A DNA stretch of 32,281 nucleotides from Sphingomonadales bacterium (GTDB lineage: Bacteria > Pseudomonadota > Alphaproteobacteria > Sphingomonadales > Govanellaceae). A model generated the notes under the pieces. The model was not told the DNA's origin, searched no databases, and worked only from the letters and a program-made list of their open reading frames with translations. The first letter of the stretch is position 1. Every line of letters begins with the position of its first letter. A program made the translations under genes and the position numbers. Positions 2,641 through 30,854 of the stretch are shown here, one piece after another. Location: assembly GCA_019455285.1 (NCBI GenBank), contig JACFMS010000010.1:89498-121778 (forward strand), in the 5' to 3' direction.

Positions 2641-3390
2641 CTAAAGGCACGTCAGGGCATTATCCACATATAGCGTCGTGCCGGTCATCGAGGCGCAGCC
2701 GCCGCGGGCAAGGAATGCCGCCACCTCGGCGATCTCCTCCGGTTGCGCCAGATGCCGCGTTGGCGTCACCGCCAGCAAGGCTTCGCGATGAAGATCAAGA
2801 TACCCCTTGGCCGGCGGGGTTTCCACAAATCCGGGACAGATGGCGTTGGCGATGATATTCTGCGCCCCGTAATCCACCGCCACTGATTTCGTCAGCATCA
2901 CCACCCCGGCCTTGGCGGCGGAATAGGCATGAAGCGCCGGCGCCACCACGGAATGGCCCACCGATGCCATGTTGATGATGGCTCCGCCGCCGGATTGCAG
3001 CATCAGCGGCAGGGCGTATTTCATGCAAAGATAAACCCCCTTCAGGTTGACCGCGATCATCCGGTCAAAGTCTTCCTCGCTTAGTTCATGAAGCGGAACC
3101 TCCGACACTTTGGTGCCAACCAGACCGCCGGCGACATTGCACAGCACGTCCAGCCGGCCGAGCTGCTTGCGTACTTTCTCAAATACCGCCGCCACTTCCT
3201 TGGCCGAGGAGACATCGGCGCGCATGGCGTAAGCCCGCTTGCCCAATGCCGCCGCCGTCTTTTCCTCATTGCCGGAGACATCCACCACCACCACTTTGGC
3301 GCCTTCCTGATAAAGACGCTCGGCTATGGCCTTGCCGATGCCCGATCCCGCTCCGGTCACCAGGGCTACGGATTTCGTCAAGTCACGCAT
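2641..3390 (-). CDS. Short-chain dehydrogenase/reductase (classical SDR)
   Basis: 249 residues, the usual length of a classical SDR. Visible features: the nucleotide-binding glycine motif TGAGSGIG (residues 12-19), Asp37 at the end of the second beta strand favouring NAD over NADP, Asn115, and the catalytic Ser143, Tyr156 and Lys160 (YSAAK). The usual NNAG motif reads CNVAG. The start has GGAG 8 nt upstream. It lies 15 bp after the cyclase-family gene and is the last enzyme of the TonB receptor-oxygenase operon. A natural role is oxidation of an alcohol or of the cis-dihydrodiol made by the oxygenase, but that is inferred from context; SDR sequences alone do not give the substrate. Confidence 0.93.
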   Translation of the reverse strand: MRDLTKSVALVTGAGSGIGKAIAERLYQEGAKVVVVDVSGNEEKTAAALGKRAYAMRADVSSAKEVAAVFEKVRKQLGRLDVLCNVAGGLVGTKVSEVPLHELSEEDFDRMIAVNLKGVYLCMKYALPLMLQSGGGAIINMASVGHSVVAPALHAYSAAKAGVVMLTKSVAVDYGAQNIIANAICPGFVETPPAKGYLDLHREALLAVTPTRHLAQPEEIAEVAAFLARGGCASMTGTTLYVDNALTCL

Positions 3391-3405: not shown

Positions 3406-4293
3406 TTAGATCACGGCAAAGGGATTGGCCACCATTTGCGTGGCGCCGTAGAGGCGTGGAAGTCCCAAGCAAAACATGAATTCATGGACGCGGTTTTTAT
3501 GCAGCTCCTCAAGCGTCAATAATTGCAAATGATAGACGCCATTCTGCGCCAGATTGAGCTGATGTCCCGGGGCGAATGTGGTGGGATCTTCGGCGGGATG
3601 AACTTCAGTTGTCGCCTGATCCGCGCCGATGATCACGACGCCGCAGTCGGCCAGATACTGCGCCGCTTCAAGTCCGACGCCAGGTGAGGAGCCAAGAAAT
3701 TTTTGGCCGTCAATCTCAATCATCTTGATCCAGCCGGTGCGCAGCACCACCACGTCGCCGGATTGGATTTCGACATTCTGCGCACTAGCGGTCGCCCTGA
3801 TATCATCCACCGTGATAACTTCGCCGCCCTGCATCATATCGACGCCCTTCCAGGCGGCAATGTCCAGCATCAGGCCGCGGGTGACAATAGGCGGCAACGC
3901 ATGGGTGCCGAATTTCTTCAAGCCGGCAAAATCGTAAAAGTCGTTGGCATGCGTGCCATTATAATAATAGTGATCGACGCCAACATGGCCTAAGCCATCC
4001 AGGTGCGTGCCCAGACCGCCCCATACAGAGAAGTACTCATCGTATCCCGTCACGCGATTGGCCCCCACCGGCGTCCCGGTAGCACTGATCGGCGCGACAA
4101 TATGGATTTCATAGCGCCGCAGCGTATACCCGGGCGTCTTCGGGGTAGCGATCAGCGCCATGGAATAAGTTTTGCCGGATCTCACCAATTTCGATGCCTG
4201 CACCATCTTCTGCGGCGTGATGAGATTGATAGCGCCCAGGGTGTCTTCCGGTCCGAAACGCGACGGTCGTACAGGGCATTGGCTCCCGGTCAT
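3406..4293 (-). CDS. Cyclase-family (kynurenine-formamidase-like) metal hydrolase
   Basis: About 295 residues. It belongs to the family of metal-dependent hydrolases that includes kynurenine formamidase and bacterial 'cyclase' proteins. The family motif HxGTHxDxPxH appears here as GLGTHLDGLGH: the first His is replaced by Gly, while the Thr-His-x-Asp and last His remain, as in the branch with GLGH rather than PLH. The frame is open from a GTG at 4308, but GAGGA lies 8 nt before the ATG at 4293, so MTGSQCP is the likelier start. It is placed between the oxygenase beta subunit (28 bp upstream) and the SDR (15 bp downstream). It may hydrolyse a lactone, amide or ring-cleavage product; the substrate cannot be read from the sequence. 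Confidence 0.85.
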   Translation of the reverse strand: MTGSQCPVRPSRFGPEDTLGAINLITPQKMVQASKLVRSGKTYSMALIATPKTPGYTLRRYEIHIVAPISATGTPVGANRVTGYDEYFSVWGGLGTHLDGLGHVGVDHYYYNGTHANDFYDFAGLKKFGTHALPPIVTRGLMLDIAAWKGVDMMQGGEVITVDDIRATASAQNVEIQSGDVVVLRTGWIKMIEIDGQKFLGSSPGVGLEAAQYLADCGVVIIGADQATTEVHPAEDPTTFAPGHQLNLAQNGVYHLQLLTLEELHKNRVHEFMFCLGLPRLYGATQMVANPFAVI

Positions 4294-4320
4294 ATTGTCT
4301 GTCCTCACTTAATATTACGG

Positions 4321-4818
4321 CTATAAAGGTATGGAAGAGAGATAAAAAGCTCCCTCACTGTCGATCAAGTCGATCCGTTTGGCATGAATGCGAAAGGCCT
4401 CGCCCTTTGGTCGCAAGGTGTAGCGAACCGCGCCAGCGTAAAGCGCGCGCGTCGGCTCCCCCGTCACCCGCATACGGAATTCGTGCACGATGAGATTGGC
4501 GCGAACCTGAACGTTGCCATCGCCATCGCGATCCTCATCTACCACCTGGATATTGCTGATGATGCGACAGGTGCGGGATGGCGGATGTTCGCTATAAGCA
4601 TTGGGAAGGCTGAGACGCTGGATGCGCGCTTCCATGAACGAGCGCTCTTCATCAAAATGCGCCATGCATTCTCCCCGCTCGGCAGCATCGGGAAGAACCG
4701 GCGCCCAGTAATGCGCGTCCTCGTCATAAAGCTCCAACCACTCATCAAAGCGCTTGTCGTCCAGCAAGGCTGCCTCGTGCGTCAGGAAATCTTCAATGCG
4801 GGATTTCAGGCCTGACAT
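4321..4818 (-). CDS. Aromatic-ring-hydroxylating oxygenase, beta (small) subunit
   Basis: 165 residues, typical of the non-catalytic small subunit of Rieske oxygenases (NTF2/SnoaL-like cone fold). The N-terminal half (EAALLDDKRFDEWLELY, then HYWAPV) and the C-terminal RIDLIDSEGA stretch match the family pattern. GGGAG lies 7 nt before the ATG at 4818. Its start overlaps the end of the alpha-subunit gene by 13 bp, which fits translational coupling and one-to-one production of the two subunits. It is expected to form an alpha3beta3 complex with the neighbouring alpha subunit, contributing structure rather than catalysis. Confidence 0.93.
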   Translation of the reverse strand: MSGLKSRIEDFLTHEAALLDDKRFDEWLELYDEDAHYWAPVLPDAAERGECMAHFDEERSFMEARIQRLSLPNAYSEHPPSRTCRIISNIQVVDEDRDGDGNVQVRANLIVHEFRMRVTGEPTRALYAGAVRYTLRPKGEAFRIHAKRIDLIDSEGAFYLSSIPL

Positions 4819-6110
4819 GGCGCATCTCCCGTCAGGAATTCAAGCCACACCCGGTACTGGTTGCGGATATATTCTTCGCTGGTGGCGGGCGGCGGCGCAT
4901 TGCGCCCTTCATCCGCCTCCTGGCGGTAGCCGCGCGCTACGTTGACCCAATCGGTCATTCCCCGTTCGTGCACCTGTTGCGCCCGTTCGTAAATTTCCAA
5001 ATCATCGGCCACCACCGGGGAAAAGCCGGAGGTGGCGATATTGCAGTAAAATACTGAATTACGCGTCACTTCCTCCGGCGCGCCTTTAAGGCGGAAGGCG
5101 TAGCCCCAAACCTCGGTTTCATTGACGCTTAACGGCCGCACCACCCGGATGGTGCACTGCGCGCCGTTGACGTTGGAGCTGGGATAAATCAGCATCAAGT
5201 GGCGGTCGGTTTTAAGGATCTCCTCGGCCCGGACCGCGCCATAAGCCTTGGCCAAGGCATGATAGTGGTCGCCCTTGGGAATTTCCTGATTGATAACGGA
5301 AATCAGCCCGGTGGCGTAGCTGTGCCCATAGCGGGTGATCCTGGATTGCAGCTTGGGCAGTACCGGCATCATTTTTGACGACCCGACCAACGACTTGGTT
5401 ACCGGATGCAGCTTGGCGGGATTGCTGACGGAATTAATCGCCGTCGCCGCCGAGGCATGAGCACCCATGGGATGCAAAATGTCATTGAGATTTTCAAACA
5501 TCATCTTCCAATTGGCGCGGTAGCGGTGGCCGATGGCGCCGGGAATGATTTCAATCTCACCCTCCGGTGAGCGGTCGATGATATCGTCAAAGCCGCTGCG
5601 GGCCTCACCCAGGTATGTCATCAGATCAACGCCGCCGGGTTTCAGCCTGGCGAAAATAAAGCCGCGGTAGCTTTCCACATCCTCAACCCGCGTCAAGTCG
5701 AACTCCGATTTAAGGCATTCCTGCGGATATTCCTCCGGGAAGGGCATGCCGAAAAACTTGCCTTTCAGCGTGAACGACCAGGCATGATAAGGACAGACGA
5801 TCCGTTTGGTGTTGCCGCGGGAATTGCCGCACAAGTGCGGCCCGCGATGAGGGCAGCGATTATGAAAGATGTTCACCTCGCCGTCATTATCCCGCATGAT
5901 GATGACATCCTGCGGCCCCAACCGAGTGGTGATATAGTCCCCCTTGTTCGGTATCTGGCTGACATGGCCGACATACATCCAGGCGCGGCTGAACAGGGTA
6001 TCCATTTCCAGATCGAATATGTCCGGATCGGTATAAATGTCGCGATGCACCCGATCCGGTTTGATCAGATCGGCGACATGTTTTTTTAAGGACTGATCTG
6101 GGGCCATCAT
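4806..6110 (-). CDS. Rieske aromatic-ring-hydroxylating oxygenase, alpha (catalytic) subunit
   Basis: 434 residues. It adds both atoms of O2 to an aromatic ring, or a single oxygen in monooxygenase members, using electrons relayed from NAD(P)H through a reductase and usually a ferredoxin. The Rieske 2Fe-2S ligands are visible as Cys86-x-His88 ... Cys106-x2-His109 with the canonical 17-residue gap. The mononuclear iron site shows Asp210 (electron bridge), His213 and His218 in ENLNDILHPMGAH; the third ligand is likely one Asp of the ADDLE stretch near the C terminus. The start ATG overlaps the upstream M19-like stop as ATGA (6107-6110), with GGAG 7 nt upstream. No ferredoxin or reductase gene is present in the window, so electron carriers must be encoded elsewhere. 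The substrate is unknown. Confidence 0.96.
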   Translation of the reverse strand: MMAPDQSLKKHVADLIKPDRVHRDIYTDPDIFDLEMDTLFSRAWMYVGHVSQIPNKGDYITTRLGPQDVIIMRDNDGEVNIFHNRCPHRGPHLCGNSRGNTKRIVCPYHAWSFTLKGKFFGMPFPEEYPQECLKSEFDLTRVEDVESYRGFIFARLKPGGVDLMTYLGEARSGFDDIIDRSPEGEIEIIPGAIGHRYRANWKMMFENLNDILHPMGAHASAATAINSVSNPAKLHPVTKSLVGSSKMMPVLPKLQSRITRYGHSYATGLISVINQEIPKGDHYHALAKAYGAVRAEEILKTDRHLMLIYPSSNVNGAQCTIRVVRPLSVNETEVWGYAFRLKGAPEEVTRNSVFYCNIATSGFSPVVADDLEIYERAQQVHERGMTDWVNVARGYRQEADEGRNAPPPATSEEYIRNQYRVWLEFLTGDAPCQA

Positions 6111-7192
6111 TGCTGCTCTCCAGCCAGAATATCGCGAAAGGCGCGGTTCAAATTTCCGCCTAAAATTTTGGCGGTATCAGTTTCGCTATAGCCGCGCCTC
6201 AAGAGCGCCGCGGCGACATTGAAGAAGCCGCGGGTATTGGAGACTTCCTTGATGTCCAGGCTGCGTTGCTTGCCGGGCGTTCGCAAGAATGGCGGCAGCG
6301 GCAGCATGTTTTGCGGCGGCAGCGCATCCCATCCCTGAATGGGGCCATCATGGCCGATGCCCACGTGGTCGATGCCGGCCACCTTCACCGCATGGGAAAT
6401 CTGGTCTATGTAATGCTCGATGGTGGTGGGGTCTTCTTCCGAGACCAGCACGCTCATGGGCGCGACGCAAAAGACGCCGCCGGTTTGGCCGATGGCGGCG
6501 ATCACCTCATCGCTTTCATTGCGCTCGCTCTGCCGAATGGCGCGGGTGTTGCCATGGGAAATGATGACGGGCTTCGTCGTGACCCGGCACACATCCTCGA
6601 TGGTTTCCTCATTGGCATGGGATAGATCGATGATCACGCCGAGCTTGTTCATGCGCGCCACCACCTGCTTGCCAAACTCAGTCAGCCCGCTGCCCTTCGG
6701 CTCGCGAAAGCCAGCGCCGATCATGCCCTGGAAGTCGGAAGTGAGGAGCGATAATCGCAAGCCCATGCGGTGGAGATAGTCAACGTCATCGACGCGGCGA
6801 AAATGATCGCAACTATGAGCGCCGAGGATAATGCCGAGCCGGCCAGTGGCCACGGCGCGGTCGATGTCCTCCGGGCGAGTGATGCGCATGAGATGGGCGT
6901 CCATCTCGGCGATTTTGGCATTCCAGGCGGCCGTGCGCCTCTCAACCTCGCTAAAAAAATCCGGGCCGAAGGCGGGGTAGAAGAAGTTACCGACATTAAG
7001 CCCGCTGCCTTCATAGGGTTTTAAATCAGCCACGCTGAGCTTTTCCGGCTCAAAGAGGATATTCAGTTCGTTGCCTTGGCCCCAGAGAAAGACGGCGGCG
7101 CTGCTGATCACCAGGCCATCTCGAACCAACTTTTCCGCCGCTTCGCCGATGGCCTGGGGAGTGTCTGATGACTTGTGGGGAGTCACCTTCAT
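6107..7192 (-). CDS. M19-like (membrane/renal dipeptidase family) amidohydrolase in the oxygenase operon
   Basis: 361 residues, matching the length and C-terminal half of peptidase family M19, a zinc amidohydrolase fold. His192 in IDLSHAN and His213 in ISHGN are spaced 21 residues apart as in renal dipeptidase (His198/His219); RNESDE and GIGHD correspond to the Arg230 and Asp288 regions. The N-terminal His-x-Asp pair is absent (DGLVISSAAV instead of DGHND), and the bridging Glu position reads ILGAHS. AGGA lies 8 nt before the ATG. The gene sits 15 bp after the TonB receptor and shares an ATGA overlap with the oxygenase alpha gene. Placement inside an aromatic-oxidation operon argues for hydrolysis of a pathway intermediate or conjugate rather than dipeptide turnover; this is inference. 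It is more divergent than the three tandem copies at 11500-15147. Confidence 0.87.
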   Translation of the reverse strand: MKVTPHKSSDTPQAIGEAAEKLVRDGLVISSAAVFLWGQGNELNILFEPEKLSVADLKPYEGSGLNVGNFFYPAFGPDFFSEVERRTAAWNAKIAEMDAHLMRITRPEDIDRAVATGRLGIILGAHSCDHFRRVDDVDYLHRMGLRLSLLTSDFQGMIGAGFREPKGSGLTEFGKQVVARMNKLGVIIDLSHANEETIEDVCRVTTKPVIISHGNTRAIRQSERNESDEVIAAIGQTGGVFCVAPMSVLVSEEDPTTIEHYIDQISHAVKVAGIDHVGIGHDGPIQGWDALPPQNMLPLPPFLRTPGKQRSLDIKEVSNTRGFFNVAAALLRRGYSETDTAKILGGNLNRAFRDILAGEQQ

Positions 7193-7207: not shown

Positions 7208-9577
7208 TTAGAATTGGTACATCACGCTGGCGCCAAATTCCCTCGGTCTGCCAGCTTTCTGAACGTCGTAAAAGCCAAGGGTTGCCGATCCGTCAAGACC
7301 TGACGTGATGTAATCCTTGTTGGTCAGATTCTGACCGAACACCGCCAGCCGCCAATGTCCGGATTCATCCTCAAAGGTGATGCGTGCGTCGATCAGGCTG
7401 TAGCCATCCTGGGCGATGTTTTCCGAATTGGTGGCTTCGGGATAGAATTTGGAGCGGTAGGAATAATCACCGCGGAAGGTCAGCTTGCCCAGATTGGACA
7501 ACGGCACCGTGTATTGCGCCGCCAGATTGAGCGTCCATTTGGGCGAGCGCATGAACTCCGCATCTATGGAAATCGGCACGCCCGGGTCGAGTTCCTTGAA
7601 CTTCGTGCTCAAATAACCAACGCCGCCCGAGAGTTCAAAATTCTCCGCCGGCAGCGCCTGCATTTCCAGTTCAAAGCCCTGGGTTCTCGCCTTGGCGGCG
7701 TTATCCACCAGAACGGTCACGCTGCCGTTCGGATTGACGACGCCGACAGTCATCTGAATATCCGAATAGTCGTTATAGAAGACTGCGCCATTCAGCCTCA
7801 GGCGGCGATCAAGCCATTCCGATTTCACCCCTGCTTCATACGATAAGACTTTTTCCGGATCGAAGGAGGTGAAGGCCGCCGCGTCGAAGGAGCGCCCGTT
7901 GTATCCGCCGCTCTTGAAGCCATGCGCCACGGAGCCGTAGACCATGACATCGGGCGTAATGCGATACTCAAGCCCGGCCTTGGGCGAGGTGGACGACCAG
8001 GTATCCTTAAGGTTGGTATTGGGCGGAGCGATATTCGCGCCGCTGTTCACCCGCTGGCTGAGGACGGAGAGATAGTCTTTCGTCTCCCGGGTGTGACGGA
8101 TGCCCAGCGTTACGCTGAGCTCATCGGTCAGCGCGAAGCTGCCCTGGGCAAAAGCGGCGTAGCTGTCGATCTTGATCTTGTTGACAAACAGGAAATCTAG
8201 GTCAAAGCCGACGTTATAGGGGTTGCCGGCGCCGCCGAGGCACGGCGCCGGGAAAGGCGCGGGGCATACCACATTCGGCGCCAAGGGAATGACGGCGGCG
8301 GGCAATGCTTCCAGCGCGTTATAAAGGCCGCCGAACACCGTGCCGTTATTAATTTCCGTTGCCGACTCATGGAGATAATAGCCGCCCACCAACCAGTTCA
8401 GCCGATCGTTGAAAGACAGGCCGGAGACTTGCAGTTCCTGGCTGAACTGCTCCTGGTCAAGATCATAATCGGCGCCATTCAGCACCATCGGCGTGCCGTC
8501 GGCGTCGCGGCCGACAAAGCTGTCCATCGTGCGGTAGGCGGAAATGGATTTCACCGTGACCACCCCCGGCGACCAAGTGAGCGTCAAATTCCCGCCGTAA
8601 ATATCTTGATCCGAGCGGTTGGTGCCAGTTGCATAGCTGTCATACCGGCCTTCGGTGGTAAAATCCCCGGTGAGCGGCGTGCCGGCAGGTCCCCCCACCA
8701 GCATATTCCAAACGCCGGCGAACGCTGCGCCGGCGATATTGTTATAGGTCACCTTGACCGGTATGCCTTGGTCACGGTTGATGGTGAAATCAAAACCGAG
8801 ATCGGCGGTAAGGGTCTCGCTCAATTCAGCGCGCAGGCCTAAGCGGCCGGTGACATCCTCCACGCCGCCGGCTTCCGCAACCTTGGCGCCATCGGGATAG
8901 GACAGCCGCTTGCCGTATCCGCCCTTGTGCTTATAGGAAAACGCCGCCTTAGCCGCCACCTTATCGCCCAACGGACCGGACAGGTAGCCGCGAGCCTCGT
9001 ACCGTTCCCGCTCGCCGGCGATGACTTCCAGACGTCCGGTCGTCACCTTGCTGGGCGTGGTGGTGACGATGTTGAGCGCGCCGCCGATGGTGTTCTTACC
9101 AAACAGCGTGCCCTGGGGCCCGCGCAACACTTCGATGCGCTCGATATCCATCAGATCCATGATGCCGCCGGTGGAGCGGGCGACGTAGACGCCATCTATA
9201 TAGGTGCCGACGCCGGGATCAGTGGTGATGATAAAGTCGTAAGCACCGATGCCGCGGATGAAGATGGAGGCGGTGCTGGGGCTGGCGCTGTTGCCGGCGC
9301 CTAGGCCGATATCCAGATTGGGCACGTAGCGCGCAATCTGATCCAGGGCGTCAAGAGAGCGGTCCCTGATGCCGTCGGCGCTGAACGCGGTCACCGACAC
9401 CGGCGTTTCCTGCAGGCGTTCTTCCCGCTTGCGCGCCGTCACTAGAATTTCTTCCAGCGAGATGCCGGCATCGGCGCTCAGCGCCGGCGTTGCCGGATAA
9501 AGCGCGACGCCAGCCAGCGCGAACAACGCAACATCAGTAATATACCCACGGCGGCGATTCCGATTTATCTGTCTCAT
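7208..9577 (-). CDS. TonB-dependent outer-membrane receptor heading the oxygenase operon
   Basis: 789 residues with a signal sequence (hydrophobic run up to PALSA), a TonB-box-like LEEILVTARKR, a plug carrying RIEVLRGPQGTLFGKNTIGG, and a barrel ending in Phe (SVMYQF). GGGGAG sits 4 nt before the ATG. It is the first gene after the lux-type promoter at 9685-9728 and is followed after 15 bp by the M19-like gene, so it probably brings in the substrate of the pathway encoded downstream. The paired design (receptor plus catabolic enzymes in one transcript) is known from TonB-receptor-rich bacteria that use plant or xenobiotic compounds. The ligand is not deducible. Confidence 0.95.
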   Translation of the reverse strand: MRQINRNRRRGYITDVALFALAGVALYPATPALSADAGISLEEILVTARKREERLQETPVSVTAFSADGIRDRSLDALDQIARYVPNLDIGLGAGNSASPSTASIFIRGIGAYDFIITTDPGVGTYIDGVYVARSTGGIMDLMDIERIEVLRGPQGTLFGKNTIGGALNIVTTTPSKVTTGRLEVIAGERERYEARGYLSGPLGDKVAAKAAFSYKHKGGYGKRLSYPDGAKVAEAGGVEDVTGRLGLRAELSETLTADLGFDFTINRDQGIPVKVTYNNIAGAAFAGVWNMLVGGPAGTPLTGDFTTEGRYDSYATGTNRSDQDIYGGNLTLTWSPGVVTVKSISAYRTMDSFVGRDADGTPMVLNGADYDLDQEQFSQELQVSGLSFNDRLNWLVGGYYLHESATEINNGTVFGGLYNALEALPAAVIPLAPNVVCPAPFPAPCLGGAGNPYNVGFDLDFLFVNKIKIDSYAAFAQGSFALTDELSVTLGIRHTRETKDYLSVLSQRVNSGANIAPPNTNLKDTWSSTSPKAGLEYRITPDVMVYGSVAHGFKSGGYNGRSFDAAAFTSFDPEKVLSYEAGVKSEWLDRRLRLNGAVFYNDYSDIQMTVGVVNPNGSVTVLVDNAAKARTQGFELEMQALPAENFELSGGVGYLSTKFKELDPGVPISIDAEFMRSPKWTLNLAAQYTVPLSNLGKLTFRGDYSYRSKFYPEATNSENIAQDGYSLIDARITFEDESGHWRLAVFGQNLTNKDYITSGLDGSATLGFYDVQKAGRPREFGASVMYQF

Positions 9578-9684: not shown

Positions 9685-9728
9685 ATAGTACCCCAGAACC
9701 TGAGATATGCAGCTGTCAGTTTTGACAG
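9685..9728 (-). promoter_or_regulatory. Lux-type promoter (site A) of the TonB receptor-oxygenase operon
   Basis: A perfect 6-bp-arm dyad, CTGTCA-N4-TGACAG, lies at 9713-9728 and has the CTGT-N8-ACAG spacing of the classic lux box. Reading the minus strand, 22 nt separate the box from TACTAT (9690-9685), a -10-like hexamer. With the box centred near -42.5 this puts the start of transcription near 9678, about 100 nt before the receptor ATG. The same spacing recurs at sites C and D. The box lies 43 bp after the stop of luxR-1. Binding by a LuxR protein is inferred. Confidence 0.75.
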
Positions 9729-9771
9729 ATACGGGCCTGCTCTATGGTAGGAAGCTCACGAACAGAGCCGG

Positions 9772-10503
9772 TTAATGCACCGGCCCCAGGAGGCCAAGGT
9801 AGGATGCCCGGGCAATAGCATGAACACGATTGGTCGCCCCCAGCTTTTCACACACCTTGCCTAAATGGAATCGTACAGTGCGTTCCGACAAGCTCATAAT
9901 CGTGGCAATTTCATCCAGCGTCTTGCCATGGGCGGCCAGGGCCAGGCATTCATTCTCACGATCGGAGAGAGGATCGGCGACCAACTCCCTCGGCGTTACC
10001 TTCTTAATCAGGTCGGCCATGCAACGATGCGACAACGCCAGCAGGTGATTTTCATGATCCCTGTTGCGCTCCATCAACTCTTGGACAGGCAAATAGGAGG
10101 AAAATACGATATAGCCAAATCCTCCAAGCGCCGAGTGGACCGGGATAGATACCCCGGAACGCACGCCCAGCTCCTGCACGCAACGGTTAAACAAGCCGAT
10201 TTGCATAGCGCTGGAAGTTTTTCCAAGACCAACAATTAAATTCGGCTTGGTATCATATCCCCACCACACCGGCAGCGTGGTTTGCAAACAAGCCTGGTAC
10301 ACCGGGTCAAGCTTATACCATTCGTCATGCAGATAATGATCCTGCCACGACGGATCGATATTGGATTCCGTGGACATGCCGAGCATCGTTGGGCGCTGCA
10401 TCGCGCCATATCTATCCCGGGCCCGCGGCGCATAGACCATGCCTGCGCCCATGAAATCTTGTGTCGATCTTTGCTGATAAAGCGTTGAGAGTGCTTGTAT
10501 CAA
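9772..10503 (-). CDS. LuxR-family regulator with autoinducer-binding domain (luxR-1, no partner luxI seen)
   Basis: 243 residues. The N-terminal ligand domain carries the pocket residues of acyl-homoserine-lactone receptors at exact spacing: Trp53, Tyr57, Asp66-Pro67 and Trp81 correspond to TraR Trp57, Tyr61, Asp70-Pro71 and Trp85, and a Gly in RSGVSIPVH fits the Gly113 region. The C-terminal GerE/LuxR helix-turn-helix (LSDRENECLALAAHGKT to FHLGKVCEKLGA) ends the protein. The start is TTG with GGAG 7 nt upstream. It is strongly similar to luxR-2 (15308-16051), including a long identical block around DPVYQAC and WWGYDTKPNLIVGLGKTSS. It precedes its likely target promoter (site A) on the same strand and has lux-box-like site B upstream. 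It may sense a homoserine lactone or related compound made elsewhere or by neighbours. Confidence 0.94.
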   Translation of the reverse strand: MIQALSTLYQQRSTQDFMGAGMVYAPRARDRYGAMQRPTMLGMSTESNIDPSWQDHYLHDEWYKLDPVYQACLQTTLPVWWGYDTKPNLIVGLGKTSSAMQIGLFNRCVQELGVRSGVSIPVHSALGGFGYIVFSSYLPVQELMERNRDHENHLLALSHRCMADLIKKVTPRELVADPLSDRENECLALAAHGKTLDEIATIMSLSERTVRFHLGKVCEKLGATNRVHAIARASYLGLLGPVH

Positions 10504-10604
10504 GACACGTCTCCAATCACCTTGTGCACATTATTAGATTATGTTTGAGTTTAAAAAAATGCTCCCATAACTTCGTCGGAATGTCCATAACCCATCAGAG
10601 GTCG

Positions 10605-10620
10605 GTGTCAAAACTGACAG
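10605..10620. promoter_or_regulatory. Lux-box-like dyad (site B) in the luxR-1/SDR divergent promoter
   Basis: GTGTCA-AAAC-TGACAG lies between the divergent luxR-1 (start 10503) and SDR (start 10696) genes. Arms match in five of six positions. The 22-nt box-to-hexamer geometry of sites A, C and D is not found in either direction; in the SDR direction the nearest -10-like sequence (TATATG) begins 5 nt further away. The site could serve autoregulation of luxR-1, activation of the SDR, or both. Confidence 0.6.
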
Positions 10621-10695
10621 TTGCCCACAGTGTTCGATGCCCCCAGGTATATGCACATGACCATTATACGATCGCAATTCAGGGATAAATAATCG

Positions 10696-11466
10696 ATGAA
10701 AATCAAAGGGATAGGGGCTATTGTTACCGGTGCAGGCTCGGGCATGGGAATGGCCACGGCCAGGATGCTGGCGCAGGCCGGGGCGCGCGTCGCCTTCTTG
10801 GACATCAATGAAGTCGGCATCCGCGCCGCGGCCGCGGAAGCGGGCGGCATCGCCCTTCCCTGCAATGTCGCGGACCCCAAGAGCCTGGAGAACGCCATTG
10901 CCAACGCCATTTCGGCGGTGGGGCCGGCGCGCATCCTGGTGACCTGCGCCGGGGTGGGACGGATGGAGCCGCTGATCGGCAGGGATAACGCCGAAGCGTA
11001 TAGCCAAATGGTCGACACCGTCATGGTCAATCTCATCGGCACGCTCAATGCCGTGCGTCTGGTGGCCAATGATCTGGCGCGCCGGCCGCCGCTTGAAGAT
11101 GGATCGCGGGGCGCGATGATCATGGTGGCCTCCGGCGCAGCGTTCGATGGCGTGCCGCAATCCGTCCCCTACACGGCATCCAAGGGCGCGGTCGTCAGCA
11201 TGACCTTGGCGCTGGCGCGGGAGTTCGGCGACCTTGGCATCCGGGTCAACACCATCAGCCCCGGCGCTTTCGACACCCCCATGATCAAAGCCGCGCCGAA
11301 GGAAGCCTGGGACGCCATAAGGTCCACGACTCCCTATCCAAAACGGCCCGGCGTGCCAGAGGAATTTGCGGCTCTTGCTCTTCATATCTGCGAGAATGAA
11401 TTCATGAATGGCTCCGTGTTGCGCTTGGATGGCGCACACCGAACGGGTTATTTTTCCAATGGTTGA
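10696..11466 (+). CDS. Short-chain dehydrogenase/reductase, divergent from luxR-1
   Basis: 256 residues. The NAD(P)-binding motif TGAGSGMG (residues 11-18) is followed by Asp36 (FLDIN, NAD preference), Asn112, and the catalytic set Ser146, Tyr159 and Lys163 (YTASK). The usual NNAG reads TCAG. The general pattern is close to the 3-hydroxyacyl-CoA / 17-beta-hydroxysteroid dehydrogenase type 10-like branch, but I would not assign a substrate. The ribosome-binding site is weak (AGGG, 11 nt upstream). It is the only plus-strand gene in the left 20 kb; it faces luxR-1 across a lux-box-like dyad and converges on the first tandem M19-like gene, with a shared hairpin at its stop codon. Confidence 0.92.
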   Translation: MKIKGIGAIVTGAGSGMGMATARMLAQAGARVAFLDINEVGIRAAAAEAGGIALPCNVADPKSLENAIANAISAVGPARILVTCAGVGRMEPLIGRDNAEAYSQMVDTVMVNLIGTLNAVRLVANDLARRPPLEDGSRGAMIMVASGAAFDGVPQSVPYTASKGAVVSMTLALAREFGDLGIRVNTISPGAFDTPMIKAAPKEAWDAIRSTTPYPKRPGVPEEFAALALHICENEFMNGSVLRLDGAHRTGYFSNG

Positions 11467-11488
11467 GAGGGCGTAATCTTGCCCTCTC
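11465..11488. terminator. Hairpin between convergent SDR and M19-like genes
   Basis: GAGAGGGC (11465-11472) and GCCCTCTC (11481-11488) form a perfect 8-bp stem with an 8-nt loop. It overlaps the SDR stop codon and lies 11 bp before the M19-like stop on the other strand. The T-run is short, so termination efficiency is uncertain, but its place between converging genes fits a two-way terminator. Confidence 0.55.
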
Positions 11489-11499
11489 TTCCGTCATGC

Positions 11500-12603
11500 T
11501 CAGGCAATAAAGATTTCCTTGAAGGCGCGCACGAAATTGCCGCCTAGGATTCCGGAAATATCCTGATCGCTGTAGCCGCGGCGGATCAGTCCTTCCACCA
11601 AGACCCTCACTCGATCGTGGCCGCACAACTCGGGGATATCCATGCTGCGTTCGCGATTTAGATAGGATACCTGCCCGGTAACCCCTTTGACATTATTGCA
11701 TGGATCAAAGCCGATCATTGGCGTCTCAAGGCCCAAGCCCACATGCCGGGGACCAATCAGCTGGCATACATGATCGAAGTGATCAATCACATGTTCGACC
11801 GTTACCGGATCTTGAGGCCGCACCATGGGCCGCCAGTACATCAGCCCGATGACGCCGCCGGTTGCCGCCAACGCCTTCAACATCTCATCAGAATTATTGC
11901 GTGAGGAAGGACAAATCGCCGCAGCATTGCCGTGGGTGATCAGCACCGGCTTTGATGAGGCGTCCATGGTCTCGCGCCGGGTTTTCAGCCCACAGTGCGA
12001 CACATCCACCGCCATGCCGATACTGTTCATCCGCTCCACCACGGCGCGGCCGAAGCGACTGAGCCCAGCATCGCGATCATCGCCTTCATCGGTAGCCGTT
12101 CCTATCCGGCTCTGGGCAAAGCAGGTCAACAGCGCATGACGCAATCCCACTTCTGAATAGAGAAAATTAATGTCATCGAGCGTGCGGAAAATCGCGCTGG
12201 CATTATGGGTGCCCACGAGAAAGCCAATACGGCCGCTTTTCTGCGCCTTATCGAACGAATCTTTCCTGGTCAGCAGCATCATGTCATCGGCATGATCGGC
12301 GACAAAGGTGTTCCAGCGGCCAAATACATGCAGCGCTTCCTGCATTGGATTGGCGACTGGGCCCATATTGGAAAAATCAAGAAATGGCTGCGGCACCAGA
12401 ATGGCGTTGTATCCTTGTTTATGCCAATCATCGATCATGCTCTCCTGCAACGGCTCAAGGCCGGTGAAGTTCATGCGAATGCCGCCATCGACGTGGCTGA
12501 CGGTGGCTTCCGTGGCATTGAATACAAATGATTCCTCGACCAGCCTGGCGGCATGGTCCCAAGTCTTGCTGCTGTTATTGGCGGCTTTTGCTGTCCTAGT
12601 CAT
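11500..12603 (-). CDS. M19-like amidohydrolase, tandem copy 1
   Basis: 367 residues, peptidase M19 (renal/membrane dipeptidase) fold. The second-zinc histidines are present (His203 in VDVSHCG; LITHGN 21 residues on), as is the Arg region RNNSDE. Differences from true dipeptidases: no N-terminal His-x-Asp (FVFNATEA), Val in place of the bridging Glu (LVGTH), LTC in place of LTH, and GLGLE in place of GIGSD, so the Asp288 position is Glu. No signal peptide is evident, so it is probably cytoplasmic. GGGGA lies 7 nt before the ATG. It has its own lux-type promoter (site C) and ends against the convergent SDR. Compared with copies 2 and 3 it has small changes such as MYWRPMVRPQD. The substrate is unknown. 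Confidence 0.87.
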   Translation of the reverse strand: MTRTAKAANNSSKTWDHAARLVEESFVFNATEATVSHVDGGIRMNFTGLEPLQESMIDDWHKQGYNAILVPQPFLDFSNMGPVANPMQEALHVFGRWNTFVADHADDMMLLTRKDSFDKAQKSGRIGFLVGTHNASAIFRTLDDINFLYSEVGLRHALLTCFAQSRIGTATDEGDDRDAGLSRFGRAVVERMNSIGMAVDVSHCGLKTRRETMDASSKPVLITHGNAAAICPSSRNNSDEMLKALAATGGVIGLMYWRPMVRPQDPVTVEHVIDHFDHVCQLIGPRHVGLGLETPMIGFDPCNNVKGVTGQVSYLNRERSMDIPELCGHDRVRVLVEGLIRRGYSDQDISGILGGNFVRAFKEIFIA

Positions 12604-12650
12604 GATATTTCCCCGATATGTGTTAAGGGTCGAAGCTATTCACGCCGACG

Positions 12651-12694
12651 ATTCTAGAATGCAAAGGGCCTTCGGCAGCTGTCAGTTTCGACAA
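12651..12694 (-). promoter_or_regulatory. Lux-type promoter (site C) of M19 copy 1
   Basis: On the minus strand TTGTCG-AAAC-TGACAG (12694-12679) is followed by exactly 22 nt and then TAGAAT (12656-12651), five of six matches to the -10 consensus. The proximal half and following bases, TGACAGCTG, are identical to sites A and D; the distal half is degenerate (four of six). The predicted transcript start is near 12644, about 40 nt before the ATG at 12603. The geometry shared with sites A and D is the main evidence. Confidence 0.72.
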
Positions 12695-12753
12695 AAATGA
12701 AACAGTCAAGCCCGGATAAGAGGGAAAATTCAGCGACAAAAAAACGCAAAGTA

Positions 12754-12785
12754 GCACGGTGGTACGCTTGACTGTACCACCGTGC
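12754..12785 (-). terminator. Strong hairpin after M19 copy 2
   Basis: GCACGGTGGTAC (12754-12765) and GTACCACCGTGC (12774-12785) form a perfect 12-bp stem with an 8-nt loop. Read on the minus strand it lies about 110 bp after the stop of M19 copy 2 and is followed within about 10 nt by a run of seven T, so an intrinsic terminator separating copies 2-3 from the promoter of copy 1 is likely. An operator role cannot be excluded. Confidence 0.6.
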
Positions 12786-12895
12786 CAAATACCGCCCTGC
12801 TGGCGATCCTGACTATTATATTAAACGCTAGCGTATAAGGTCCAGGGTAAATCCTCTTGAAATGAAATCCTGTGTTGAACTTCCGTCAATCCCAA

Positions 12896-13999
12896 TCAAG
12901 CGACAAAGATTTCCTTAAAGACACGCACAAAATTACCGCCCAAGATTCCGGCTATGTCCTGATCGCTATAGCCGCGGCGAAGCAGTCCTTCCACCAGAGT
13001 CCGCACCCGATCAATGCCGCAAAGCTCGGGGATGTCCATACTGCGGACTTGCTTCAAGTATGACACTTGCCGCGCCGGACCCATGGAATTTTCGCAAGCG
13101 TCAAAGCCAACCATCGGTATCTCAAGACCCAGGCCGACATGCCGCGGCCCAATCAACTGGCAGACATGATCGAAGTGATCAAGCACATGCTCCACCGTTA
13201 CCGGGTCTTCCAACCGCACCATGGGCCGCCAGAACATCAGACCGATGACGCCGCCGGTAGCCGCCATTGCCTTCAACATCTCATCGGAATTATTGCGCGA
13301 GGTGGGGCAGATCGCGGCCGCATTGCCATGGGTGATCAGCACCGGCTTTGATGAGGCGTCCATGGTTTCACGGCGTGTTTTTAAACCGCAGTGCGAAACA
13401 TCTACCGCCATGCCAAGGCTATTCATGCGCTCCACCACGGCGCGGCCAAAGCGGGTCAAGCCGCCGTCGCGGCCGTCACCTTCATCAGCAGAGGTGCCGA
13501 TCCGATTTTGGCCGAAACAGGTTAAGAGCGCATGGCGCAAGCCCACTTCCGTATAGAAAAAGTTGATATCGTCCAACGTACGGAAAATTTCACCCGCGTT
13601 ATGGGTTCCCACCAGAAGGCCGATGCGGCCGCTTTTTTGCGCTTTGTCAAAGGACTCCCGCTTGGTCAATAGCATCATATCATCGGCATGGTCGGCAACG
13701 AAAGTGTTCCAGCGGCCGAAGACGCGCAAGGCCGCTTCCATGGTGTTCGCAACCGGGCCCATATTGGCCGGATCAAGAAAGCCTTGCGGTATGAGAATGG
13801 CGTTATAGCCCTCCTTGCGGTACTCATCGATCAGTCGGTTGGTCAAAGGCCCGCTGCCAGTAAAATCCATGATGTACTTGCCATTAATCTCATGGGCAGG
13901 GGCCTCCGTGGTATTGAACACGAATGACTGCTCAACCAGCCTGGCCGCATGGTCGCGTGTTTCATTCATGGTATCAGTAGTCGCCGCTGTCTTAGCCAT
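12896..13999 (-). CDS. M19-like amidohydrolase, tandem copy 2
   Basis: Same family and layout as its two neighbours. The frame extends up to an ATG at 14014, but AGGAAG lies 4 nt before the ATG at 13999, giving MAKTAATT and the same 367-residue length as copies 1 and 3. It shares VDVSHCG, LITHGN and RNNSDE, and the same missing His-x-Asp and Glu (LVGTHN). It lies 44 bp after copy 3 with no dyad or terminator between, so the two are probably co-transcribed from site D. C-terminal variation (VRVFKEIFVA, LLRRGY) and ENSMGPARQ near residue 300 distinguish it. Retention of three intact frames suggests selection for dosage or for slightly different substrates. Confidence 0.87.
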   Translation of the reverse strand: MAKTAATTDTMNETRDHAARLVEQSFVFNTTEAPAHEINGKYIMDFTGSGPLTNRLIDEYRKEGYNAILIPQGFLDPANMGPVANTMEAALRVFGRWNTFVADHADDMMLLTKRESFDKAQKSGRIGLLVGTHNAGEIFRTLDDINFFYTEVGLRHALLTCFGQNRIGTSADEGDGRDGGLTRFGRAVVERMNSLGMAVDVSHCGLKTRRETMDASSKPVLITHGNAAAICPTSRNNSDEMLKAMAATGGVIGLMFWRPMVRLEDPVTVEHVLDHFDHVCQLIGPRHVGLGLEIPMVGFDACENSMGPARQVSYLKQVRSMDIPELCGIDRVRTLVEGLLRRGYSDQDIAGILGGNFVRVFKEIFVA

Positions 14000-14043
14000 G
14001 GTACTTCCTATCATCTGTTAAGTGTTTGCACTGCGCCTAGTTT

Positions 14044-15147
14044 CTAGGCGACAAAGATTTCCTTGAAAGCGCGCACGAAATTACCGCCCAATATTCCGGC
14101 AATATCTTGATCGCTGTAGCCGCGGCGGATCAGCCCTTCCACCAAGGTCCGCACCCTGTCATGGCCGCATAACTCGGGAATATCCATGCTGCGAACTTGT
14201 TTTAAGTACGACACTTGCCGCGCCGGCGTCATGGTATTCTCGCAGTTATCAAAACCGACAACCGGCGTCTCGAAACCCAAGCCTACGTGTTGCGGGCCGA
14301 TCAGTTGACAGACATGATCGAAGTGATCAAGCAGGTGTTCGATCGTCACCGGATCCTCCAGCCGCACCATGGGCCGCCAGAACATCAAGCCTACGACGCC
14401 GCCCGTGGCCGCCATCGCCTTCAGCATTTCATCGGAGTTGTTGCGCGAAGAGGGGCAAATCGCCGCAGCATTGCCATGGGTGATCAATACCGGCTTCGAT
14501 GAGGTGTCTATGGCCTCGCGGCGCGTCCTAAGTCCGCAGTGGGATACATCCACCGCCATGCCGATGCTGTTCATGCGCTCCACCATGGCGCGGCCGAAAC
14601 GAGTCAGTCCGCCGTCGCGATCGTCGCCCTCGTCGACGGAAGTACCTACTCTATTTTGTCCAAAGCAAGTGAGCAGGGCATGGCGCAATCCCATTTCGGT
14701 ATAGAAAAAGTCTATATCATCCAGGGTGCGAAAAATTTCACCGGCGTGATGGGTTCCTACCAACAATCCGATGCGACTTGTCTGTTGCGCCCTATCAAAT
14801 GATTCACGCTTGGTCAACAGCATCATGTCATCAGCATGGTCAGCGACATAGGTATTCCAGCGGCCGAACACCCGCAAACACATCTCCCGCATGTTTGCGG
14901 CCGGACACATGTTGGAGGGGTCAAGAAATCCCTGCGGAATCAGGATCGCGTTATACCCTTGCTGACGCCACTCGTCGATCAGACGCTCCTCCAATGGCTC
15001 CAGTCCAACAAAATTTACCCTTGGTTTGCCGGAGGCGTAGCTGACGGATGCTTCCGTCGTGTTGAACACGAATGACTCTGCAACCAACCGCGCCGCATGT
15101 TCTCGCGCGTCACCTTCGTTGCTGCTTTTTACCGCCGTCTTGGCCAT
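14044..15147 (-). CDS. M19-like amidohydrolase, tandem copy 3 (promoter-proximal)
   Basis: 367 residues. His203 (VDVSHCG) and His224 (LITHGN) lie 21 apart, matching the second-zinc histidines of renal dipeptidase. The N-terminal His-x-Asp is missing (FVFNTTEA) and the bridging Glu position is Val (LVGTHH). The Asp288-equivalent stretch reads GLGFE. GGAGA lies 6 nt before the ATG. It is the first gene after luxR-2 and the lux-type promoter D, with copy 2 following after 44 bp. The N-terminal third (CPAANMREMCLRVFGRWNTYVADHADD) differs most from the other copies, so substrate-side specialisation is possible. Confidence 0.87.
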   Translation of the reverse strand: MAKTAVKSSNEGDAREHAARLVAESFVFNTTEASVSYASGKPRVNFVGLEPLEERLIDEWRQQGYNAILIPQGFLDPSNMCPAANMREMCLRVFGRWNTYVADHADDMMLLTKRESFDRAQQTSRIGLLVGTHHAGEIFRTLDDIDFFYTEMGLRHALLTCFGQNRVGTSVDEGDDRDGGLTRFGRAMVERMNSIGMAVDVSHCGLRTRREAIDTSSKPVLITHGNAAAICPSSRNNSDEMLKAMAATGGVVGLMFWRPMVRLEDPVTIEHLLDHFDHVCQLIGPQHVGLGFETPVVGFDNCENTMTPARQVSYLKQVRSMDIPELCGHDRVRTLVEGLIRRGYSDQDIAGILGGNFVRAFKEIFVA

Positions 15148-15228
15148 ATGATATCTCCGATATAATACTTAACTAGGTGATGTGCGCATTGCTCTTCCGG
15201 CTTTCTCATGCGCCATGCTTGCCAATCA

Positions 15229-15272
15229 ATTCTAAAGAACAATGCAGTATTCACAGCTGTCAAATCCGACAG
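15229..15272 (-). promoter_or_regulatory. Lux-type promoter (site D) of M19 copies 3 and 2
   Basis: The minus strand reads CTGTCG-GATT-TGACAG (15272-15257), then CTG, and after a total of 22 nt TAGAAT (15234-15229). Arms agree in five of six positions. The predicted start is near 15222, about 75 nt before the ATG at 15147. The box is 35 bp past the luxR-2 stop, mirroring the luxR-1/site A layout. A TTGACA embedded in the box is 23 nt from the hexamer, too far for an ordinary -35, which supports a lux-type activator-dependent promoter. Confidence 0.74.
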
Positions 15273-15307
15273 GCTGAATAGAATAAATAAAATAAACGAA
15301 ATAGAGC

Positions 15308-16051
15308 CTAGTGAATGGGTCCCAGCAGCCCGAGATAGGAAGCGCGAGCAATGGCGTGCGTACGGTTGACCGTGCCCAGCTTATCGCAAGCATTGCCCAG
15401 ATGGAACCGTACGGTGCGCTCGGAAAGATCGAGGATGACCGCGATATCTTCCAAAGTCTTGCCATGGGCCGCCAGCGTCAAACATTCTACTTCGCGCGCC
15501 GATAATGAAATTCCCACAGGCTTTGACACTTCGACATGATTAATGATCTTGGCAAAATAGCGATGCGCCAATGACATGATCTGGTCTTGATGGTGCTCGT
15601 TGCGGTCGAGAAGTTCTTGAATAGGTATGCAGGAGGGAAAAACGATATACCCGAAGCCGCCCAACGCGGAGTGGAGCGGGATCGATACGCCGGAACGGAC
15701 CCCCACTCTCTCGGCGCAGCTATGGAACAAGCTGACCTGGGCGGCGCTGGATGTCTTGCCAAGTCCCACAATCAAATTTGGCTTCGTGTCATATCCCCAC
15801 CATACCGGCAACGTCGTCGTCAGGCATGCCTGATAGACCGGATCGATTTTATAGTGCTCATGCTGGAGATAATAATCGCCCCACCAGGGAGCGAGCTCGC
15901 ATTGCGACGACATAGTAATCAGCGTTGGCCGCTGCATGGCGCCGGAGCGATCGCGGGCGCGAGGCGCGTAACTCAAGCAGGCGGCCTCGAAGTCGGGAAT
16001 GGCGACTTCCTCGTATAACGACGACAGGGATTCGGTTACAACGCCGCTCAC
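15308..16051 (-). CDS. LuxR-family regulator with autoinducer-binding domain (luxR-2, no partner luxI seen)
   Basis: 247 residues. Trp57, Tyr61, Asp70-Pro71 and Trp85 fall at the same residue numbers as the pocket residues of TraR. The C-terminal LuxR helix-turn-helix contains LSAREVECLTLAAHGKT and SERTVRFHLGNACDKLG. The start is GTG with GAGG 7 nt upstream; an ATG 5 bp further upstream runs straight into a stop and is not usable. It is a close paralog of luxR-1, most similar in DPVYQACL to GKTSSA, in the GGFGYIVF core and in the HTH; the N-terminal 20 residues and the linker differ. It precedes site D and the M19 pair on the same strand and has dyad E upstream. The ligand is unknown; conserved pocket residues favour a homoserine-lactone-like signal. 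Confidence 0.94.
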   Translation of the reverse strand: MSGVVTESLSSLYEEVAIPDFEAACLSYAPRARDRSGAMQRPTLITMSSQCELAPWWGDYYLQHEHYKIDPVYQACLTTTLPVWWGYDTKPNLIVGLGKTSSAAQVSLFHSCAERVGVRSGVSIPLHSALGGFGYIVFPSCIPIQELLDRNEHHQDQIMSLAHRYFAKIINHVEVSKPVGISLSAREVECLTLAAHGKTLEDIAVILDLSERTVRFHLGNACDKLGTVNRTHAIARASYLGLLGPIH

Positions 16052-16199
16052 TGCATGGCCTCATCCAGCTTATGCACGCCCACGCCCGGCGGGTCACCTA
16101 CAGTCCGTCAAGACGGTTGGCTCAGCATCAATTTTTCTCTAGCCGGCAGCAAAATGCTCACACAGCTTACCAGCATTGTCCAGATTTTATCCGGAACAA

Positions 16200-16215
16200 G
16201 TGTCAGAAGTGACAG
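16200..16215. promoter_or_regulatory. Lux-box-like dyad (site E) upstream of luxR-2
   Basis: GTGTCA-GAAG-TGACAG lies 148 bp upstream of the luxR-2 GTG, with five of six arm positions paired. Like site B upstream of luxR-1 it begins with GTGTCA, and neither has the 22-nt spaced hexamer. It probably serves autoregulation of luxR-2. The rest of the 229-bp gap to the CoA-ligase stop shows no gene. Confidence 0.58.
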
Positions 16216-18104: not shown

Positions 18105-18364
18105 GTCAAATCCTCTCAGACCTCAATTTTTCCGGCGCAATATGCACTATATCGCACTATTAATATAGCGTGTTAAGAAGCCATGCCAAGTTGGCTATAG
18201 TGACAGGCGAGCAATACTGTTCGCAAGACCTGCCCGGAAATCACAAAATCAGTCTTAGTATTTTGAAAAATAACAATTTATTTTTAAAATTAGCGTGGAG
18301 CAACACAGCAACCCCATCGCTTTGGCTCCAGCCGCGCAATGCTGAACCCGATAACGCCCCCGCC

Positions 18365-19528: not shown

Positions 19529-19604
19529 GCCAACTCCTTCCGTTTCTCTGCGAAATAGCCCTACGAAAATGGCCACGGCTTGCTCACTCGTCTCAAGCCA
19601 ACTG

Positions 19605-20897: not shown

Positions 20898-20954
20898 CGT
20901 CGGCCTGAATCCGGATATCCAGATGAACTTCATGCTGGGAAGGCGTAAATCCCG

Positions 20955-20989
20955 TGGACGCCTCCGGACATCAACTCCGGAGGCGTCCA
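20955..20989. other. Perfect 14-bp-stem hairpin between TonB receptor and MFS gene
   Basis: TGGACGCCTCCGGA (20955-20968) pairs fully with TCCGGAGGCGTCCA (20976-20989) around a 7-nt loop. It starts about 10 bp after the receptor stop on the minus strand. No T-run follows, so it is not a textbook terminator. It could stabilise the receptor mRNA, lower read-through into the MFS gene, or bind a regulator. Confidence 0.55.
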
Positions 20990-20999
20990 GCAGGTGATA

Positions 21000-29209: not shown

Positions 29210-29225
29210 CCAGAACAGTTATGTT

Positions 29226-29313
29226 GTCATTGCGAGGAGAGAAGTGACGAAGCAATCCAGAAAATAGCCGAGACAAGAAAAATATTGATTGCTTCGCTTA
29301 CGCTCGCAACGAC
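29226..29313. repeat. REP-like extragenic inverted repeat
   Basis: An imperfect palindrome: GTCATTGCGAGGAGAGAAG... to ...AGCAATC (29226-29257) and GATTGCTTCGC... to ...CGCTCGCAACGAC (29287-29313). The GTCATTGCGAGG / GAAGCAATCC form is a dispersed extragenic repeat I recognise from many bacterial genomes. It lies between the receptor and the amidase genes. It might act as an mRNA-stability or partial termination element. Confidence 0.7.
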
Positions 29314-29357
29314 GATAGGGGCCAATTTATGGCGCACGACTTCATAAGGATATAGCA

Positions 29358-30812: not shown

Positions 30813-30854
30813 AAAGTGATCCGCAGTTCTACTTACATATCATAGGATATCACC

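Follow-up and report, generated by a model that had tools for sequence, protein, structure and literature searches.

Lux-box-like dyads as probable operators of two LuxR solos in an uptake and catabolic gene cluster of a Sphingomonadales bacterium

A stretch of 32,281 nt from a Sphingomonadales bacterium, called the window below (G000:C15:89498-121778; position 1 is its first letter), carries five inverted repeats resembling CTGTCA-N4-TGACAG. These dyads are interspersed with genes for two LuxR-type proteins, a TonB-dependent receptor (TBDR), a Rieske oxygenase, and several M19-like proteins. We consider it likely that two local LuxR solos use the dyads as operators, through which they would activate uptake and catabolic promoters. 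Control by the local LuxR proteins had been proposed in the original prediction made for this DNA, and it gains support from the near-confinement of strong dyads to this locus, their conservation in a second species, their predicted centering at −42.5 at three promoters, and the presence of dyads near related luxR genes. Two findings go beyond what had been proposed earlier, namely a fixed geometry of 22 nt and dyads that apparently recur close to related luxR genes of other genera.

RESULTS

Five low-mismatch dyads are located between genes

The whole window was searched for CTGTCA-N4-TGACAG with up to three mismatches, and shuffled sequence served as the control. This search recovers all five predicted dyads, which begin at positions 9713, 10605, 12679, 15257, and 16200 and carry zero, one, two, one, and one mismatches, respectively. 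There are 15 matches in total, compared with a shuffle mean of 8.35, and 3 of 100 shuffles reach 15. Because this number exceeds chance only mildly, the strength of the case rests on the low-mismatch dyads. Exactly five of the 15 matches have two mismatches or fewer, and these are the five predicted dyads. The earlier remark that no further copies had been noticed in the rest of the window holds at this threshold, with the other 10 matches carrying three mismatches each.

All five dyads are intergenic, as had been predicted, and intergenic DNA makes up 14.7% of positions 9685-16215 by the gene list of this analysis. The dyad at 9713 lies in the gap between luxR-1 and the TBDR gene, the one at 10605 between the divergent luxR-1 and SDR genes, and the one at 15257 between luxR-2 and M19-3. 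The remaining two are upstream of M19-1 (12679) and luxR-2 (16200). Dyads of the lux-box type are found in promoter regions, but the predicted agreement with the classic spacing, CTGT-N8-ACAG, is only partial. This outline is exact in two dyads (9713 and 15257), whereas the other three depart from it at one outer base: Those at 10605 and 16200 start with GTGT, and the one at 12679 ends with ACAA.

Strong dyads are nearly confined to the locus

The source assembly (G000) is a draft of 3,302,424 bases in 57 contigs that is rated 100% complete, but 16S was not found in it. A scan of this entire genome, which had been suggested as a check, reveals that strong dyads are nearly confined to the locus rather than strewn at random. 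The pattern STGTCANNNNNGACAN (STGTCA-N5-GACA) occurs at seven distinct places, five of which are the dyads described here (within 6.5 kb), and at none in the reversed control. With one mismatch or fewer to the consensus, four of six places are at the locus (binomial odds 2e-10). With two or fewer, the genome has 58 places (47 in the reversed control), including five at the locus (binomial odds 1.2e-7 for 6.5 kb). No dyad is observed at this threshold in the 33.5 kb that precede the window (L007 and L043). Strong dyads are thus not randomly scattered, since the low-mismatch places concentrate at the locus and none occurs in this preceding DNA.

Other places near the motif are located within long open frames on contigs C37 and C13, or overlap the start of an open frame on C12, where a one-mismatch counterpart is present in the second species described below. 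On C16, a dyad-like sequence, GTGTCAGTCATGACAA (G000:C16:80391; L005 6392), overlaps the beginning of a different TonB-receptor gene, probably by chance. None of these places on C37, C13, C16, and C12 matches a dyad followed by 22 nt and TANNAT, either exactly or with one mismatch.

Dyad cores are conserved in a second species

Searching relatives for the dyads had been suggested as a further check, which finds all five kept in a second species and dyads of related sequence beside luxR relatives from other genera. The second species (G001; public record QEVO01000007.1) belongs to the same genus and carries the same cluster, with 93.1% DNA identity over 23.4 kb. The 12-base cores of the five dyads are identical at 60 of 60 bases. 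Both changes within the dyads fall in the N4 spacers, which are identical at 18 of 20 positions. The surrounding intergenic DNA outside the dyads is identical at 881 of 987 positions (89.3%), and at that rate the odds of 60 identical bases out of 60 are ∼0.001. If the gap holding the first dyad is excluded, 48 of 48 core bases are identical compared with 87.0% of intergenic positions (odds 0.0013).

Dyads of this kind could also be RNA hairpins or chance palindromes rather than protein sites. The dyads at 9713 and 15257 sit 44 and 36 nt past a luxR stop codon, which is a possible place for a terminator. However, no T run follows the dyads when the sequence is read by eye. The near-confinement of the strong sites, the conserved cores with changes only in the spacers, and the fixed distance to a −10-like hexamer also argue for protein sites, and we judge a hairpin or chance origin to be very improbable.

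A −10-like hexamer lies at a fixed distance from three dyads

Candidate −10 hexamers were scored with a set of −10 weights, and offsets were counted from the dyad toward the gene. At the promoters of the TBDR gene (TACTAT), M19-1 (TAGAAT), and M19-3 (TAGAAT), a −10-like hexamer begins precisely 22 nt past the dyad. The same offset is seen at loci of more distant genomes introduced below, namely G071 (TAAGAT), G074 (TAATAT), and G010 (TAAAAT). Overall, a hexamer of at least 4 bits is present at offset 22 in six of seven structural-gene promoters from four genera, compared with 3% at each of the other offsets. The odds of this outcome are 8e-7 if a rate of 7% is assumed.

A −10 hexamer at positions −12 to −7 places the dyad center at −42.5. 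This centering, derived from the predicted −10 elements, fits three of the five window dyads (9713, 12679, and 15257). The lux box of Vibrio fischeri is centered at −42.5, which is an activator position. The composite TGTCR-N4-YGACAG-N22-TANNAT occurs exactly at three places in each of the two genomes of the genus, all at the locus, and no further place with one mismatch is found elsewhere in either genome.

The dyads would therefore fall into two classes, one with activator geometry (9713, 12679, and 15257) and one with some other geometry at the luxR promoters (10605 and 16200). For the dyad at 16200, TAAAAT is found 10 nt toward luxR-2 and there is no good hexamer at 22. A −10 element at offset 10 would place this dyad between −35 and −10, which suggests autorepression of luxR-2.

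Related luxR genes in other genera are accompanied by dyads

The two window proteins were used to seek LuxR relatives in 99 related genomes and 385 genomes of the class. A five-row LuxR profile, which already contained rows from G298, G071, and G074, was searched in 396 genomes of the order, five of the order of G298, and 398 of the phylum (these sets overlap). When only the window pair serves as query, the top matches outside the genus are in G298 (1.7e-50), G074 (4.7e-35), G071 (3.3e-34), and G010 (1.6e-25), the last being barely ahead of G008 (1.1e-24). In G298, G071, and G074, luxR is directly followed by a TBDR gene, and one dyad whose arms are perfectly palindromic lies in the gap (reading, in gene sense, CTGTCGTTTTCGACAG in G298 and CTATCGTTTGCGATAG in both G071 and G074). 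In G010, 6 bp separate luxR from a preceding gene for a PhyH-family dioxygenase, which itself has CTGTCATAAGTGACAG 84 bp upstream. A separate feature of G071 is a long inverted repeat noticed by eye between its M19 and luxR genes (L042, ∼8188-8450; tctgcgcttagatacggcc ... ggccgtatctaagcgcaga), resembling a small insertion element.

A LuxR tree was built from 53 rows: the two proteins of the window and 51 rows taken from the 59 loci L061-L119. The window pair groups with the proteins of G298, G071, G074, and G010 (support 96/86), although L065 (G010) is a long branch of unusual composition. Omitted from the tree are L063 and L064 (the copies from this genome and from G001) as well as L081, L098, L099, L110, L113, and L118, the last six being without the dyad pattern. 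A CTRTCR-N4-YGAYAG dyad is located nearby for six of six rows of the window LuxR group versus two of 47 other rows (L101 and L104), with the dyad beside LuxR-2 counted as an imperfect match. Simple shuffles predict 0.65 such dyads, or 0.1 perfect ones, for the 664 kb of loci, a length that includes overlaps. The motif was found at 12 distinct places, of which 11 are near luxR and one is within a luxR frame.

The two other rows are distant luxR genes with adjoining CTATCA-N4-TGATAG-type dyads, at 1459 and 2289 in L101 (G852) and at 1343 in L104 (G1109). In G852, these dyads flank luxR on both sides.

Neighboring genes and dyads were scanned at 68 LuxR loci, made up of all 59 loci L061-L119, four of 11 non-own class loci, and five others. 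Apart from G298, G071, and G074, a TBDR gene adjoins luxR only in L082 (G048), where it is divergent and has no dyad. This count of luxR-TBDR modules is a lower bound because flanks of at most 1.5 kb and only the best LuxR matches were taken. Among plasmid records, the 20 LuxR matches listed have 28-35% identity, and all 922 matches are below 60%.

Many dimeric regulators bind dyads of this general form, and genes for AsnC- and TetR-type regulators are present in the window at 23856 and 26235. The dyads might accordingly be bound by an unrelated regulator of TGTCA-N4-5-TGACA half-sites, with the luxR genes as passengers. However, luxR-1 and luxR-2 are the only regulator genes found within the site-bearing stretch, and −42.5 is the position of a lux-type activator. 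The dyads in the luxR-TBDR gap of G298, G071, and G074 and upstream of the PhyH-luxR pair of G010 likewise point to LuxR, such that an unrelated regulator seems distinctly improbable.

Both regulators are LuxR solos

Both LuxR proteins score above both Pfam cut-offs for PF03472 and PF00196, and no other Autoind_bind protein was found in G000. Residues W53, Y57, D66, P67, W81, and G117 of LuxR-1 align with W60, Y64, D73, P74, W88, and G113 of LasR, and all six pocket residues are common to LuxR-2. A broader comparison uses the residue mapping of TraR to LasR. Nine conserved residues of quorum-sensing (QS) LuxR proteins (W53, Y57, D66, P67, W81, G117, E183, L187, and G193) are invariant in both window proteins. 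In TraR numbering, this set is W57, Y61, D70, P71, W85, and G113, together with E178, L182, and G188 (PMC10134790). The stretch from W81 to G117 of LuxR-1 is ∼10 residues longer than in LasR, and this may reflect a different ligand.

The original prediction of a quorum-type regulator was not upheld, since no synthase for N-acyl homoserine lactones (AHLs) was found in G000. Its sole Autoind_synth match corresponds to TIGR03694 exosort_acyl (153.1 bits versus a cut-off of 111.95), and no LuxI cut-off is passed. Quorum sensing by a LuxI encoded in this genome is not supported, the single match being a PEP-CTERM acyltransferase. As judged from these sequences, the window pair are therefore LuxR solos, meaning QS LuxR proteins without a cognate LuxI detected in the genome. 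The PEP-CTERM/exosortase-associated acyltransferase itself (G000:C57:113753-114229; L003) passes the Pfam cut-off for Autoind_synth, and confusion with LuxI is possible.

True quorum sensing would be retained if the AHL came from an unrecognized or unassembled synthase, with LuxR proteins at the dyads inducing the catabolic cluster in response to cell density. Both window proteins have the six pocket residues of AHL receptors. Moreover, two genomes of the same LuxR group have Autoind_synth matches away from the luxR locus, of 71 bits in G071 and 77 bits in G074; the G074 match is similar to TraI but falls under the curated cut-off, and for the G071 match no model passed the 1e-20 limit. However, the G000 assembly is rated as complete and its only match is the exosort_acyl protein. 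The single match in G001 has the same score as in G000 (47.5 bits), the match in G010 is exosort_acyl at 34.2 bits, and Autoind_synth has no match in G298. We regard density-dependent induction as unlikely.

Observations that disfavor LuxR operators

Several observations weigh against assigning the dyads to LuxR proteins. At two mismatches or fewer, G000 has 58 places, not far from the 47 of its reversed control, and the corresponding G001 count is 76 versus 33, an excess without explanation. Likewise, the composite of dyad, spacing, and hexamer with at most two mismatches is found at 18 places in G000 (control 5) and 16 in G001 (control 7). The hexamer of G298, TACGCT, is at offset 23 and not 22. 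Stronger than the TBDR hexamer at 22 is TATAGT at offset 32, and G010 has an equal one at offset 9; these competing hexamers make the −10 boxes of both promoters uncertain. The dyads at 10605 and 16200, which face three promoter directions (luxR-1, SDR, and luxR-2), are without a good −10-like hexamer at 22 nt.

The promoters are also partly nonindependent, because M19-1 and M19-3 may be duplicates and G071 and G074 represent one genus. Both the 22-nt offset and the degenerate motif were formulated after the sites had been seen. The gap holding the dyad at 9713 is 99.5% identical between the two species, so the conservation of this dyad says little. W57 (TraR numbering) is Leu in G071 and G074. 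Finally, the structure model of LuxR-1 was too poor for a fold search (mean predicted local distance difference test score 58.6, from a 5-row alignment) and was not used.

Genes behind the dyads

The coordinates of the dyads and of the genes near them are collected in Table 1. The tightly packed genes for the TBDR, M19-4, both oxygenase subunits, the cyclase, and the SDR oxidoreductase are probably one operon.

Table 1. Dyads and genes of the cluster, with positions counted along the window
Feature	Position	Strand	Remarks
dyad 1	9713..9728	-	CTGTCAAAACTGACAG in gene sense; upstream of TBDR-M19-Rieske-cyclase-SDR; identical in G001
dyad 2	10605..10620	.	GTGTCAAAACTGACAG; between divergent luxR-1 and SDR
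dyad 3	12679..12694	-	TTGTCGAAACTGACAG in gene sense; upstream of M19-1
dyad 4	15257..15272	-	CTGTCGGATTTGACAG in gene sense; upstream of M19-3/M19-2
dyad 5	16200..16215	-	CTGTCACTTCTGACAC in gene sense; upstream of luxR-2
luxR-1	9772..10503	-	243 aa, Autoind_bind + GerE
luxR-2	15308..16051	-	247 aa, Autoind_bind + GerE; 64% identical to luxR-1
SDR oxidoreductase	2641..3390	-	last gene of TBDR run
putative cyclase (PF04199)	3406..4308	-	
ring-hydroxylating oxygenase beta subunit	4321..4818	-	
Rieske oxygenase alpha subunit	4806..6110	-	
M19-4, M19-like	6107..7192	-	same gene run as TBDR
TonB-dependent receptor	7208..9577	-	first gene behind dyad 1
SDR oxidoreductase	10696..11466	+	divergent from luxR-1
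M19-1, M19-like	11500..12603	-	
M19-2, M19-like	12896..14014	-	29 bp behind M19-3
M19-3, M19-like	14044..15147	-	
M19-5, M19-like	18365-19576		

The cluster had also been described as containing a gene-amplified hydrolase. The window has five M19-like genes, three of them (M19-1 to M19-3) in the site-bearing stretch, and the hydrolase label is doubtful. The binuclear zinc ligands of M19 enzymes are the His and Asp of an HxD motif, a Glu, and a further His. In the window proteins, the HxD motif has lost its His in all five and its Asp in four, and the bridging Glu is replaced in all five (by His in four and Gln in one), as is the third His position. Two His and one Arg are kept in all five. The zinc ligands of an M19 dipeptidase are thus incomplete in these proteins, as read from an alignment that is weak at the N terminus. 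The reference M19 protein beside luxR of G071 retains all metal-site residues in this same alignment. Because several metal ligands are lost, hydrolase activity cannot be assumed, and the window proteins possibly form a non-peptidase M19 group.

We do not place the acyl-CoA synthetase-M19-MFS-TBDR genes (16281-23255) in the regulon; no dyad at two mismatches or fewer lies upstream of them. The acyl-CoA synthetase (16281-18104) is closest to NCBIfam PRK12582, just below the cut-off (748 of 777 bits), and the 3′ end of its gene adjoins dyad 5. Farther along, at 26993-32135, another TonB receptor, an amidase, and a PLP-dependent decarboxylase-like gene stand in a row with no dyad at two mismatches or fewer.

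DISCUSSION

A model for regulation of the cluster

The sites, their positions, their conservation, and their recurrence near related luxR genes come from the sequence; from these we infer how binding, activation, the ligand, and the substrate could fit together. A ligand would bind the LuxR solo, and this is probably a compound tied to the pathway substrate or a signal from outside. A LuxR dimer positioned at a dyad near −42.5 would then activate three promoters, those of the TBDR/M19/Rieske/cyclase/SDR genes, of M19-1, and of M19-3/M19-2. At the luxR-2 and luxR-1/SDR promoters, LuxR would bind with different geometry, most simply for autoregulation.

A broader history can be proposed tentatively, and we hold it to fall slightly short of probable. 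AHL-receptor-like LuxR solos in at least four genera may have left quorum sensing for substrate-linked activation of neighboring TBDR or oxygenase and catabolic genes, using a co-diverging CTRTCR-N4-YGAYAG dyad at −42.5. In the genus studied here, they would then have been duplicated and have taken over a metal-site-degenerate M19 cluster. If true, AHL-receptor-like proteins act as catabolic regulators tied to TonB-dependent uptake. Many LuxR solos are without an assigned ligand or target. Because the operator, its geometry, the targets, and the regulators can each be proposed here from the sequence, ligand screening is reduced to a simple reporter test.

Comparison with known systems

The luxI promoter of V. 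fischeri shares with this locus the CTGT-N8-ACAG outline and a regulator with GerE and autoinducer-binding domains, and its dyad is centered near −42.5, as is predicted for three dyads here. In contrast to that system, no luxI partner was found here, the proposed targets encode a TonB receptor and catabolic proteins, and the inner arms of the dyad are TCA/TGA.

A second likeness is to solos of the PipR, OryR, and XccR type, each located beside peptidase-like genes that it probably controls (PMC10134790, PMC4338825). OryR, XccR, PsoR, and NesR have W57M and Y61W pockets and pip genes (PMC4338825). The window proteins do not belong to this class from plant-associated bacteria: W57 and Y61 are kept (W53 and Y57 in LuxR-1), and the neighbors are M19-like, TBDR, and Rieske genes rather than pip. 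Of the characterized LuxR solos tabulated in a review (PMC10134790), none is beside a TonB receptor, M19 gene, or Rieske oxygenase. Similarly, no description of a luxR-dyad-TBDR module was found in the open-licence PMC literature, as far as its texts were available.

LuxR proteins have been linked to TBDRs before. Overexpression of LesR, a LuxR solo of Lysobacter enzymogenes, changes the levels of nine TBDRs, but this effect was not shown to be direct; its authors state that they lacked the purified LesR needed for a gel shift (PMC4886534). LesR resembles the present case as a LuxR solo linked to TBDR levels, but the accessible text describes neither an operator nor luxR-TBDR linkage. Loss of LuxR402 in Novosphingobium sp. 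HR1a alters envelope proteins that include TonB receptors (PMC10413115). For catabolism, TeiR of Comamonas testosteroni has been described as a LuxR-type regulator of degradation genes (PMC8700777), and a title cited in another paper (PMC13273656) ties a Rhodococcus LuxR solo to dibenzofuran. These two regulators are like the proposed system in being described as acting on degradation genes.

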